From contig CADCKQ010000001.1 in NCBI GenBank assembly GCA_902802045.1, forward strand, positions 186,001 to 250,000: a stretch of DNA of 64,000 nt, in the 5' to 3' direction. Of this stretch, positions 4,702 through 26,893 are shown in pieces. Source of the stretch: Oscillospiraceae bacterium. GTDB taxonomy: Bacteria; Bacillota; Clostridia; Oscillospirales; Oscillospiraceae. Made by a program: the position numbers and the translations under genes. A model generated the notes under the pieces. The model was not told the DNA's origin. It worked only from the letters and a program-made list of their open reading frames with translations, and searched no databases. How positions within the stretch are numbered: the stretch's first letter is position 1; every line of letters starts with the position of its first letter.

Positions 4702-5900
4702 CAGTCAGCACCTCCTCTGATCTTTTTGATCTCTATGCTTTCGACAAAAGCCTGAACACGAGTTCTCATCTGCCCCACGGAAGATTTAATATTGTACGGT
4801 CTGTCTACCGACAACACCGGATAATCGTATTCCTCGTGAAGGATATGCGACCCCAGCATTCTCTCATATGCCCACGGATCGCAGAATTTGATCTGCTGGT
4901 AAATGATGCCGTCTGCTTCGTACTCTTTCGCGAGTTTGTTGACATACTCGCGTCTGCCGTTCATCGTCGGAGTGTCCATCATTCTCGGGCACTGGCATCT
5001 GCTCATATACCGGCGGCAGATCTGGGTAAGAGCGTCCTCGTCATCTGTTAAAACGATCGGATCCCTTCCGGGCAATGAACCGTAGCAGAAGCGGTCGGCA
5101 CAAACATATGCTCCAGAGTCTTCTATCAGCTTTATAAAGTATTCGTCATCGGCTTCGCTTCCGACCACAAGCACTCTTGCCCGTGCCTCTCCTTCTTTCA
5201 TCGGTTCGCGCGTTTTGAGTTCTTCGAGCGTCTCCTCAAGTTTGCCTATAAGCATGTCCTTCGGAGCGACATACGTACAGAGCGTGATAACATGGAACTC
5301 ATAGCCGGTTATTGCGGGTGTCCTTCCTTTTCTGAACTCCCCTATAGCTCTGATGAGCTCGCATATCCTGTTGTGCCTTGCAACAGCTTCTCTAATAGAG
5401 GCATCCGAAACATCTATGCCGTAGTTCTCGCTGAGAGGCTTCAGTATATGGTTTTTGCACTGGGTTACATAGAGCTTGAGGCCGTTTTCATCAGCCTTCA
5501 TAGGGATCTCCATGTAATCGTAGAAAAATTTCTCCTTATCGGCAGCGACGGCATTGAGCAGCTCCATATTCTCGATGCAGCGGTTCATCATGGTACAACC
5601 GTCGGGCGTAATAAGTCCGTCAAGGTGGTTGTATCCGCCCTCTATCGCTCTCTCAAGCAGACTGCGGCTGTATTCGCACAGGAGATTTGTAAGATAATAA
5701 GTCCCGACTTCAGTGGACCCTGTGTTGGGCGCGCGGAGCCGTGTAGAGAAAGCGTTGCCGATATTCAGCAGCGGCTCGGGAACATTCTCGCAGGAATAGC
5801 CTATGCAGATTTTCCCGTCTTTCTGCGCCTGCCTGATCAATTCATTGTTTGCAGACTGGAGAAGGTTTTCAAAGTAAATAAGATGCTTTAAATCCTTCAT
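4701..5900 (-). CDS. 2-hydroxyacyl-CoA dehydratase family subunit, small (399 aa)
   Basis: This is an HgdB/BcrC-like subunit. It has the family layout: an early Cys in YSCENVPEPLLNIG, LCEYSRSLLERA, DGCTMMNRC, and a C-terminal ADGIIYQQIKFCDPWAYER followed by PVLSVDRPY. These Cys residues are the likely cluster ligands by comparison with the family. The length is normal for a beta subunit. It overlaps the larger subunit by one base and follows the flavoprotein after an 87-base gap holding a strong hairpin. A double-cubane cluster protein is an alternative for this fold, but the paired second subunit favours a dehydratase/reductase-like heterodimer. Confidence 0.82.
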   Translation of the reverse strand: MKDLKHLIYFENLLQSANNELIRQAQKDGKICIGYSCENVPEPLLNIGNAFSTRLRAPNTGSTEVGTYYLTNLLCEYSRSLLERAIEGGYNHLDGLITPDGCTMMNRCIENMELLNAVAADKEKFFYDYMEIPMKADENGLKLYVTQCKNHILKPLSENYGIDVSDASIREAVARHNRICELIRAIGEFRKGRTPAITGYEFHVITLCTYVAPKDMLIGKLEETLEELKTREPMKEGEARARVLVVGSEADDEYFIKLIEDSGAYVCADRFCYGSLPGRDPIVLTDDEDALTQICRRYMSRCQCPRMMDTPTMNGRREYVNKLAKEYEADGIIYQQIKFCDPWAYERMLGSHILHEEYDYPVLSVDRPYNIKSSVGQMRTRVQAFVESIEIKKIRGGAD

Positions 5901-24480: not shown

Positions 24481-25383
24481 TTGACAAGATATTTCCTGTC
24501 CGATTATCTCAAGGATACTTTCGGAACAAAAGTATATAAGCTCTCGCTCCAGAGCGGCTGTACCTGTCCCAACAGGGACGGTACTCTGGGTCTCGGCGGC
24601 TGCAGTTTCTGCTCGGAGGGCGGTTCCGGTGACTTTGCCTCTCCGCTTCTGCCTGTAAGAGACCAGATAGAAGCAGCAAAAAAGCTTGTTGATGCCAAAT
24701 TTCCGCGCAGAATATCTGAAAGTGACAGGAAATATATAGCCTATTTTCAATCTTTTACCAATACATACGGCGATACCGAAAAGCTTTGCGCTCTTTATGA
24801 AGAAGCCCTCTCGTTTCCGGAAATTGCAGCATTATCGGTCGCCACCAGGCCGGACTGCTTATCGGATGAAATACTCTTTAGACTCTCTGAGATGAACAGG
24901 ACAAAACCGGTCTGGATCGAACTCGGACTGCAGACATCCGATGACAAGACTGCTGAAAGGATTAACAGATGCTATAAGACAGAAGTTTTTGGAGAATGCT
25001 GGAACAGGCTGAAATCCGCGGGACTTGAAGGTATAGTACATATTATTCTCGGCCTGCCGGGTGAATCCGAACCGGAAATGCTCGAAACAGCAGGCTATCT
25101 TGCCCGGCTCGACCCGCCTCCGGACGGAATCAAAATATCCAATCTTCAGATCCTTAAAGGTACAAAGCTCGGAGAAGAATACCTGAAGAAACCCTTTAAT
25201 CTGCTGTCTCTGGACGAATACGCGGAGCTTGTCTGCAAGTGCCTCGATATCCTGCCTGAGACGACGGTCATACACCGGATAACCGGAGACCCTCCGAAAA
25301 AGATCCTGATCGCGCCCGCTTGGTGCGCGGACAAGAAAACCGTGATCAATACCCTGAACAAAAAACTCAACCGCTTCGGCTGA
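24481..25383 (+). CDS. Radical SAM protein, YhcC/TIGR01212 type
   Basis: A 300-residue radical SAM enzyme. CTCPNRDGTLGLGGCSFC near residue 27 supplies the cluster Cys residues in the spacing typical of the YhcC/TIGR01212 family. ELGLQT and HIILGLPGE are further family segments. The translation start is a TTG at 24481 with a GGAGG site 7 bases upstream; no ATG fits. The molecular role of the family is not settled, with RNA modification proposed for relatives. A strong terminator lies 147 bases after the stop. Confidence 0.88.
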   Translation: MTRYFLSDYLKDTFGTKVYKLSLQSGCTCPNRDGTLGLGGCSFCSEGGSGDFASPLLPVRDQIEAAKKLVDAKFPRRISESDRKYIAYFQSFTNTYGDTEKLCALYEEALSFPEIAALSVATRPDCLSDEILFRLSEMNRTKPVWIELGLQTSDDKTAERINRCYKTEVFGECWNRLKSAGLEGIVHIILGLPGESEPEMLETAGYLARLDPPPDGIKISNLQILKGTKLGEEYLKKPFNLLSLDEYAELVCKCLDILPETTVIHRITGDPPKKILIAPAWCADKKTVINTLNKKLNRFG

Positions 25384-25465
25384 TGCCTGAGCGGTTAATC
25401 ATCGGAATAGTGAACGATCTGACTGTATAAGGCATGTGATTACGGAAAAAGAATGACCTGTCTTT

Positions 25466-25768
25466 GATGACAGCTCGATAATCATGCTGTCACCGCTCAA
25501 AGCATTGTAAACACTGGATTGATGACAGGGTGACAGCAGAATCGCTGCTGTCACCTTTTTTATCATATTATTATCTGATGACAGCTTGGGGTATATCACG
25601 TTTCAGCTGTCACCTGTCACCGGCCTTTGTAGCCCAACGGATTGACGGATGACAGCTGCTTTTTTGTGCTGTCACCCCTGTCCAAGCTGTCATATTTGTT
25701 GTCCGAAAAAGCATATCACTTCATGACAGGACGAAGTGTCATGACAGGAAAACAAAGCACCTGTCATG
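25466..25768. repeat. Cluster of TGACAG / CTGTCA palindromic repeats
   Basis: Six copies of (G/C)ATGACAG begin at 25466, 25521, 25577, 25648, 25722 and 25740, plus a TGACAG at 25531. They are interleaved with CTGTCA copies near 25487, 25548, 25607, 25614, 25669, 25687 and 25761. Most pair as TGACAGC...GCTGTCACC across 15-20 bases, giving a row of hairpins. Start-to-start distances are 55, 56, 71 and 74 bases before a final short one. Sequences between the arms are not conserved. Confidence 0.75.
25530..25561 (+). terminator. Terminator within the palindrome cluster
   Basis: GGTGACAGCAG pairs perfectly with CTGCTGTCACC around a 5-base loop and is followed by TTTTTT. It most likely ends the radical SAM transcript. 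Confidence 0.75.
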
Positions 25769-25828
25769 CCTGTTTTAAGCGCTAACAATATAATGCTTTC
25801 CATATCTCCCTTCGACGGGCTCTGTCTG

Positions 25829-26878
25829 TTATTCTATCCTGAAAAGCTTCTTTCCGGGAACGCCCGCGCGGTAGGCATCGACTGCTTTTTCGAAATCGTG
25901 CAGTGCATAGGTCCCGCCGATGATAACTGACGCGTCAAAGTAAGGAGAACGCATGACTTTCGCGAAATTGTCCCAGGTCTCCCAGATCCTTCTTCCACAG
26001 ACTCCGGTTATCTCCACCTCCCGGTAATATACGTCATTTGTCAGATCCAGACCCACTTCACCACTCGGGAATCCGACTCCCACAAGTCTTCCGCCGTTTT
26101 TCAGTGCTTTTATTCCATTTACGATTGCAGGCGGCGCTCCCGTAACGTCTATGGCTGCATCAACTCCGAGTCCTCCGGTCAAGTCTCTGCAGAATGAGAT
26201 AATATCCGTTTCCGAGCTGTTTACCGTTATATCTGCCCCCATCTTCTCTGCATCCTTCAGGCGCTCCGGAAGGATATCACAGGCAATGACTTTCTCTGCT
26301 CCGAAGGTCTTAGCACCTGCTATAACTGTCAGCCCTATCGCTCCGCATCCGCTGACAAGCACGTTTTTCCCTTCGACCTCCGCTTTCTCGACTCCGCGGA
26401 TCCCCGATCCCATCGGCTCGAAAAGGCAGCCCACATCGTCAGAGATATCGTCGGTAAGTTTATATGTGATCTTTTCCGGAGCTGCGACATATTCGGCAAA
26501 TGCCCCGTCTCTTCCGACGCCGAACAGAGACATATTCATACACATGTTGGATTTACCGCTTAAGCACATCGGGCATTTTCCGCAGGGTATATGCGACTCG
26601 AAAGCGACTCTGTCCCCCGGTTTTCTGTCTTTCACGTTTTTACCGGCAAGCACTACCTCTCCGCATGCCTCATGTCCCATTATTACAGGCGGCTTTACCC
26701 AGATCCGGGACCATTTGTCCCAGTCGATTATGTGGATATCCGTACCGCACAAAGCCGCTCTGTTTACTTTTACCAGAACCTCATCATCTTTCGGCTCGGG
26801 AATGGGGAGATCGTCATGCCAGACCGGAGCACACGTTCCCTTCTGTTCTTTTTTCAGACCGAACATCGTATCAGACAT
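25829..26878 (-). CDS. Zinc-dependent dehydrogenase, threonine 3-dehydrogenase-like
   Basis: A 349-residue medium-chain dehydrogenase. AALCGTDIHIIDWDKW holds the catalytic zinc Cys in the context typical of L-threonine 3-dehydrogenase; GHEACGEVV carries the zinc His. The structural-zinc loop (CGKCPMCLSGKSNMC) and the NAD motif SGCGAIGLTVI follow. ATG 26876-26878 was chosen since AGAGG lies 7 bases upstream; the ATG two codons earlier is too close to that site. Relatives also oxidise sorbitol or butanediol, so the substrate is tentative. The membrane-protein gene upstream may be co-transcribed (15-base gap). Confidence 0.85.
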   Translation of the reverse strand: MSDTMFGLKKEQKGTCAPVWHDDLPIPEPKDDEVLVKVNRAALCGTDIHIIDWDKWSRIWVKPPVIMGHEACGEVVLAGKNVKDRKPGDRVAFESHIPCGKCPMCLSGKSNMCMNMSLFGVGRDGAFAEYVAAPEKITYKLTDDISDDVGCLFEPMGSGIRGVEKAEVEGKNVLVSGCGAIGLTVIAGAKTFGAEKVIACDILPERLKDAEKMGADITVNSSETDIISFCRDLTGGLGVDAAIDVTGAPPAIVNGIKALKNGGRLVGVGFPSGEVGLDLTNDVYYREVEITGVCGRRIWETWDNFAKVMRSPYFDASVIIGGTYALHDFEKAVDAYRAGVPGKKLFRIE

Positions 26879-26893
26879 AATCATGCCTCTTTC

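Follow-up and report, generated by a model that had tools for sequence, protein, structure and literature searches.

What is a dense cluster of short complementary words doing in a gap between two bacterial genes? The window analysed here (the whole stretch of 64,000 nucleotides) holds such a cluster, for which a sequence-only reading had offered three options: a multi-site binding array, a folded noncoding RNA or a worn palindromic repeat element. Below we compare the block with its relatives in other genomes and propose an answer in which a family of helicase genes plays a central role.

A word cluster between two genes

The cluster is real: 14 TGACAG/CTGTCA words fall within 299 bp, between 25468 and 25766 (Table 1), and the unit spacings of 55, 56, 71 and 74 reported earlier are exact. 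The whole window contains 56 of these words, where shuffled versions average 27.9 and none of 100 gets to 56. At its densest the cluster packs 13 of them into 300 bp; the maximum elsewhere in the window is 2. A window-wide scan for 6-mers that cluster on both strands (6 or more per 300 bp) returned this block alone.

The block is indeed gene-free and lies between convergent ORFs ending at 25383 (+) and 25829 (-), which we take to be radical-SAM-like (by its Cys motif) and zinc alcohol-dehydrogenase-like (by its sequence), respectively; no helicase gene adjoins the window copy. As described before, one hairpin of the block (25527-25557, + strand) has a T-run. Folding of both strands, suggested earlier as a check, shows that the block folds much more strongly than shuffles both as DNA (z = -6.1) and as RNA (z = -5.9 for the + strand, -7.1 for the - strand). 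A CRISPR array consists of direct repeats of a few tens of nucleotides with uniform unique spacers. The block is unlike this, as had been claimed: its words are 6-8 nt long, occur in both orientations at uneven spacing, and the sequence between them is conserved between copies. The statement that this intervening sequence is unconserved stands for the units within the window copy, but fails between the genomic copies (75-93% identity).

Table 1. Parts of the window copy and its flanks (positions in the window; G000, the window's own genome).
Feature	Position	Strand	Remark
TGACAG, seven copies	25468, 25523, 25531, 25579, 25650, 25724, 25742		
CTGTCA, seven copies	25487, 25548, 25607, 25614, 25669, 25687, 25761		
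Unit A (stem word TGACAGC / GCTGTCA), 5'-truncated	25464..25692	+	aligned against the five other A copies of G000
Hairpin h1 (GATGACAG..CTGTCACC)	25466..25494	+	
Linker 1 (CGCTCAAAGCATTG..ACTGG)	25495..25520	+	nearly invariant between A copies of G000
Inner arm: outer words 25523 and 25614, two hairpins inside (25529-25555, 25579-25612)	25521..25622	+	
Hairpin h2	25649..25676	+	
Outer right word of unit A	25687..25692	-	
Unit B remnant (stem word TGACAGG / CCTGTCA): first words and one hairpin	25722..25770	+	
Upstream flanking ORF	24481..25383	+	outside the element
Downstream flanking ORF	25829..26884	-	outside the element

A dispersed family of arrays

Using blastn with the region as query, five further copies (75-93% identity) were found on five other contigs of G000 (2.03 Mb in 11 contigs). 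From the six A copies a covariance model (159 positions) was built, which adds two more-diverged copies (C1:56637 and C1:453095), which brings the total for G000 to 8; the weak partial matches at C1:453281 and C2:114073 are excluded from this count. The same model finds nine loci in G262, the nearest relative in the same genus. Overall it matches 2 of 250 family genomes (G000 included) and 3 of 102 genus genomes, the third being G295, where the match consists of the linker only and no words. No blastn match was obtained in 39 other relatives (24 in the genus), nor for the block in the phage and plasmid collections, and Rfam yielded no family match (best 20.3 bits against a gathering score of 39). 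Literature listings gave no report of such arrays. Among the 17 copies (8 in G000, 9 in G262), 14 stand alone in intergenic DNA and 3 lie behind AAA_25 genes.

Two types of unit are distinguished by their stem words, TGACAGC (unit A) and TGACAGG (unit B). A complete unit A has the word order > > < > > < > < < > < < and consists of an outer stem, hairpin h1, an inner arm with two hairpins, and hairpin h2; as this order is its own reverse complement, the covariance model also matches copies on the opposite strand. The outer left word, which the five other A copies of G000 have, is degenerate in the window copy. Units are combined in various ways: A+B at C3 and C8, where unit A is followed by a fuller unit B; A with most of B at G262 C11:86075; A with only pieces of B in the window copy, C4, C6 and G262 C9:50253; A alone at C5, G262 C5 and G262 C6; B alone at G262 C8; and single TGACAGG units at C1:56637, C1:453095, G262 C3 and G262 C11:139061. 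At G262 C9:97277, h1 and h2 carry the word TAGACAGG and the arm carries TAGACAGG as well as GAGACAGG; the left part of G262 C15 resembles this copy but is joined to a TGACAGG hairpin h2.

A stretch like linker 1 also occurs in TGACAGG units, in TAGACAGG units and in the G148 array. In G295 C25 (L066, ~5190-5260) the unit A linker TCAAAGCATTGAAAACACTGG occurs without a single word, and may be a conserved element in its own right. As a separate observation, the copies at C3, C4, C6 and G262 C9:50253 (L009, L010, L011 and L057) share a common 3' flank with a protein tail like GDVKIYSIARIEETGSDVN before the stop (translated by eye), possibly an old common insertion context.

The words are the conserved part

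Absence or scrambling of the block in close strains had been named as a point that would count against its importance, and this check was telling: at the orthologous site of the nearest relative (G262 C9:97277, flanks ~97-98% identical) a related element is present, with a different stem word. For the other genomes among the 102 of the genus, the window flank returned short stretches of distant similarity only. C1:56637 is orthologous to G262 C15 (95%), which has a mixed word. Three orthologous pairs carry the same word type (C8/G262 C5, C4/G262 C6 and C1:453095/G262 C3), and in these all 198 word columns are identical, whereas 55 of 515 other aligned columns differ (Fisher p 1.5e-8). The six A copies of G000 show a similar tendency: 61 of their 72 word columns are invariant, as are 77 of the 172 remaining columns.

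Homogenisation among copies could contribute to this conservation of the words, but the sequence between the words differs freely in the orthologous pairs. Judged from these alignments, selection seems to keep the orphan words (those of the lone copies) intact. Element content differs between the two genomes at several sites: the C8 site is A+B in G000 and A only in G262 C5, and the element is absent from the C5 site in G262 and from the G262 C11:86075 site in G000, in both cases with other flanking changes too. Because the far flank differs at these element-free sites, no precise insertion boundary or duplication is readable, and no clean insertion (empty) site was found at the orthologous sites of the two genomes. 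The contexts of the lone copies are mixed, with five convergent 3'-3' gaps among 14. Covariation in their stems does not extend past the word and one further base, and RNAalifold finds a two-sided change in 1 of 72 pairs.

Arrays follow AAA_25 helicase genes

In G000 C5, G262 C8 and G262 C11:139061 the array begins at the stop codon of an AAA_25 gene (at most 15 bp away, same strand), and in all three a Peptidase_S24/LexA-like gene precedes AAA_25 (by Pfam for the C5 and C11 proteins). Arrays of other words follow the AAA_25 genes of G000 C1:494435 and of one locus in G148. An AAA_25 search of G000 gave only C5, C1:494435 and a distant match at C5:119553, and none near the orphans.

To widen the view, 80 named AAA_25 loci, mostly from Clostridia, were fetched with the AAA_25 alignment, of which 76 were usable and 4 too short. 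At least 5/6 words in inverted order were present in the 220 bp after the AAA_25 match at 59 of the 76 loci (a count that includes near-identical loci) against 8 of 2064 control windows. With at least 5 TGAC/GTCA words in the same 220 bp as the measure, the numbers are 65 of 76 (again with near-identical loci) and 74 of 2064. The 17 loci below 5/6 words include several with variant words (by eye). The commonest words behind AAA_25 in the named genomes are GTGACG/CGTCAC. A gene-blind search for GTGACGR triples, in turn, is positive in 28 of 300 family genomes, against none for the reversed control pattern; taking one locus per genome, the array lies 3' of AAA_25 in 25 of 28, including L269, where a partial AAA_25 match ends 436 bp short. 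The remaining three (L285, L289 and L291) have no AAA_25 match. The link between arrays and AAA_25 genes thus runs both ways, and one short word repeated several times immediately 3' of a helicase gene is seen for the class as a whole and for 3 of the 17 genus copies.

The two arms of an array also match each other. Over 37 non-redundant loci, arms share 5.62 9-mers within a locus against 1.77 between loci (0 of 5000 permutations, which ignore relatedness), and in some loci both arms have changed in concert (by eye), e.g. to GCGTCG or GCGACG.

Two further observations concern array composition. L289 carries tandem arrays around ~1500 on the reverse strand, GTGACG followed by GCGACGG, with no AAA_25 match in 3 kb. 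L168 and L169, contigs from the IMG/VR virus collection, have mixed TGACAG and TGACGG arrays that follow AAA_25 matches.

The helicase and its mobile elements

A profile of 39 AAA_25 sequences has RSF1010 RepA as its best PDB match (1g8y, E 9.5e-7), followed by Twinkle and RadA; by sequence profile RepA is the closest solved helicase (structures 1g8y, 1nlf, 1olo). In the AlphaFold2 model (pLDDT 85) the core matches DnaB/RepA with Z 21.8-23.7 (helicase core only), so that the modelled core is that of a replicative-type, DnaB/RepA-like helicase. The predicted C-terminal domain has the order H-E-H-H-E-E and looks winged-helix-like. Its best Foldseek match has E 9.5e-3 and none reaches E 0.001; the matches include winged-helix regulators. 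NCBIfam has no match for the G000 C5 AAA_25 protein, and a PADLOC defence search gave none for the AAA_25 proteins and only weak CasR matches for the S24 protein (E 5.6e-4 and 7.6e-4).

We also asked whether the word type follows the C-terminal domain and not the core. The association was positive at first, with array DNA inside the gene end. After this gene-end/array overlap was removed, the partial correlation is 0.205 (21/2000), whereas the core half, as control, gives an effect of the same size (0.213, 34/2000), and without the 5 genus sequences the effect is gone (0.067, 470/2000). With the overlap removed, a link between word type and the C-terminal domain is thus not demonstrable.

By Pfam, all 4 tested proteins encoded before AAA_25 are tyrosine integrases and all 5 tested proteins encoded after the array are Mob_Pre relaxases, which makes these loci look like integrative mobilizable elements (IMEs). 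Among the adjoining ORFs read at the three genus TGACAG/AAA_25 loci, no integrase or relaxase was seen.

The neighbourhoods hold some other features. On G148 C2 (L078:1931-4909, -) a 992-aa protein with a DYDGD motif matches phrog_8308 (unknown) and, weakly, an RNA-dependent RNA polymerase (phrog_4291, E 1.5e-6); its neighbours are an AAA_25 gene and a gene for a recombinase (phrog_95 integrase). At G262 C8 (L263:14463-14782) a five-repeat CRISPR-like array with 66-nt spacing lies directly upstream of the S24/AAA_25 pair; it is not beside the matching pair in G000 C5.

Comparison with known systems

REP/BIME sequences, which are associated with RAYT, are dispersed intergenic palindromes, and so are the copies described here. 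The latter differ in that there is no Y1 transposase, the unit is far larger, and the word is shared within an element but different between subfamilies. Closer parallels are found among replication modules. The helicases of SaPI Rep and SCCmec Cch2 are of another type than the DnaB/RepA-like core found here. According to PMC7581432, they bind iterons directly downstream of their own gene via their C-terminal part. The common plan is a replicative-type helicase with a C-terminal part (here a predicted winged-helix-like domain that may bind DNA) and repeats of a short specific word directly downstream of its gene, in integrative elements; unlike in SaPI Rep/Cch2, the words here are inverted and complementary, and in the genus there are also several lone copies.

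For the Sulfolobus plasmid pRN1, PMC4234260 describes a gene for a repressor, a replication protein with a winged helix and, directly downstream, a stem-loop of ~100 nt that replication requires. The likeness lies in the combination of a repressor, a replication protein with a C-terminal winged helix (here predicted) and a downstream stem-loop structure; the pRN1 protein is, unlike here, a primase with an SF3 helicase, and its stem-loop has no iteron structure. In RSF1010, by the same paper (PMC4234260), the ssiA/ssiB hairpins exposed by RepA are priming sites while iterons are read by the separate RepC; the comparison with RSF1010 covers the RepA-like part.

A proposed orphan origin-type array

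Since the anatomy of the arrays matches the SaPI/Cch2 and pRN1 plan, we read the array as an origin-type site and the block as an orphan of it. Specifically, we propose with moderate confidence that the block is an orphan copy, under selection, of the origin-type binding array of an AAA_25 helicase family. The observations beneath this proposal are a repeat family that is dispersed, a link between arrays and AAA_25 genes in both directions, arms that are complementary across loci, words that are conserved, and a helicase fold in the predicted model; binding, origin activity and a role for the orphans are what we infer from them. The array family belongs with AAA_25, RepA/DnaB-type ATPases with a predicted C-terminal winged-helix-like domain, and in the intact arrangement the array begins where the helicase gene stops. 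The helicase may read the repeated word through its C-terminal domain, the inverted words may help the DNA to open or fold, and replication of the mobile element would start at the array. The word differs by array (GTGACG, GCGACG, TGACAGC, TGACAGG or TAGACAGG), and in the window species and its nearest relative the array has also become a dispersed repeat of lone copies. As selection seems to keep the orphan words intact, a protein probably still binds them in trans, be it the helicase, the LexA-like partner or some other reader of the word.

Other explanations

Part of the evidence might also fit a non-autonomous mobile repeat (MITE- or BIME-like), moved by a transposase that reads the terminal words, with the AAA_25 link due to hitch-hiking. 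Copies at unrelated sites with 75-93% identity, their composition of A, B or A+B (including the C8 site, A+B in G000 and A alone in G262) and the inverted TGATGACAG/CTGTCATCA at the ends are all in line with this. Yet a Y1 transposase (PF01797) has 0 matches in G000 (the control is positive in 5 of 14 genomes), and no clear target-site duplication was seen by eye in the copies of G000 and G262. Moreover, arrays of unrelated words occupy the same place behind AAA_25 in other genomes, which a wandering element would not explain; we consider the mobile repeat unlikely. The option of a worn palindromic element holds for the dispersed repeat family but not for the wear, given that the words are intact. 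The same conservation of orphan words argues against the copies being dead remnants of decayed AAA_25-bearing mobile elements with no present role, as does the lack of an AAA_25 match near any G000 orphan. Truncations, such as that of the window copy, where unit A misses its outer left word and little of unit B is left, would be expected of such remnants, and in L285 a small ORF before the array contains the string SVGADD, like the AAA_25 N-terminal consensus (by eye); altogether we regard dead remnants as distinctly unlikely.

The strong folding of both strands, the arms that are more complementary within than between loci and the position directly at the AAA_25 stop codon might instead point to a structured non-coding RNA, either as the 3' UTR of the mRNA for the helicase or as transcripts of their own. 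We judge this quite improbable: there is no Rfam match, the word order is self-complementary so that both strands fold alike, the lone copies have mixed contexts (with the five convergent 3'-3' gaps mentioned above), their stems lack covariation past the word and one further base, and the word is constant within most elements, as it would be for a binding site. The folded RNA of the sequence-only reading has the same low probability. It is very improbable, finally, that the words are operators of the LexA-like S24 repressor encoded beside the helicase. The gene does precede AAA_25 in G000 C5, G262 C8 and G262 C11, but the copies sit in gaps of mixed orientation and not consistently at promoters, and the S24 gene was seen in the genus loci, whereas the tested mobile elements have an integrase before AAA_25 instead. 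Overall the earlier interpretation is partly supported: with the words as the constrained part (0 of 198 columns differ), the multi-site binding array fits best of its three options.

What the arrays may mean

For the orphans of the origin-type array we consider three roles: they may be dormant origins, act as decoys, or serve as the sites at which a domesticated LexA-like/helicase pair works. More tentatively, and with considerable doubt on our side, the chromosome may keep orphan origin arrays under purifying selection, with the word switchable as a block, as working sites of such a domesticated pair, e.g. as decoys or dormant extra origins. In the decoy version the orphans would titrate the initiator helicase of invaders with the same word and so form a built-in incompatibility or immunity device. 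The replication of excised IMEs had never been studied, according to a review (PMC5704250). If the proposed reading is true, it would provide a candidate origin and initiator for a large group of IMEs of gut Clostridia, and the lone arrays would be origin-like sites that are kept on the chromosome without an adjoining initiator gene.
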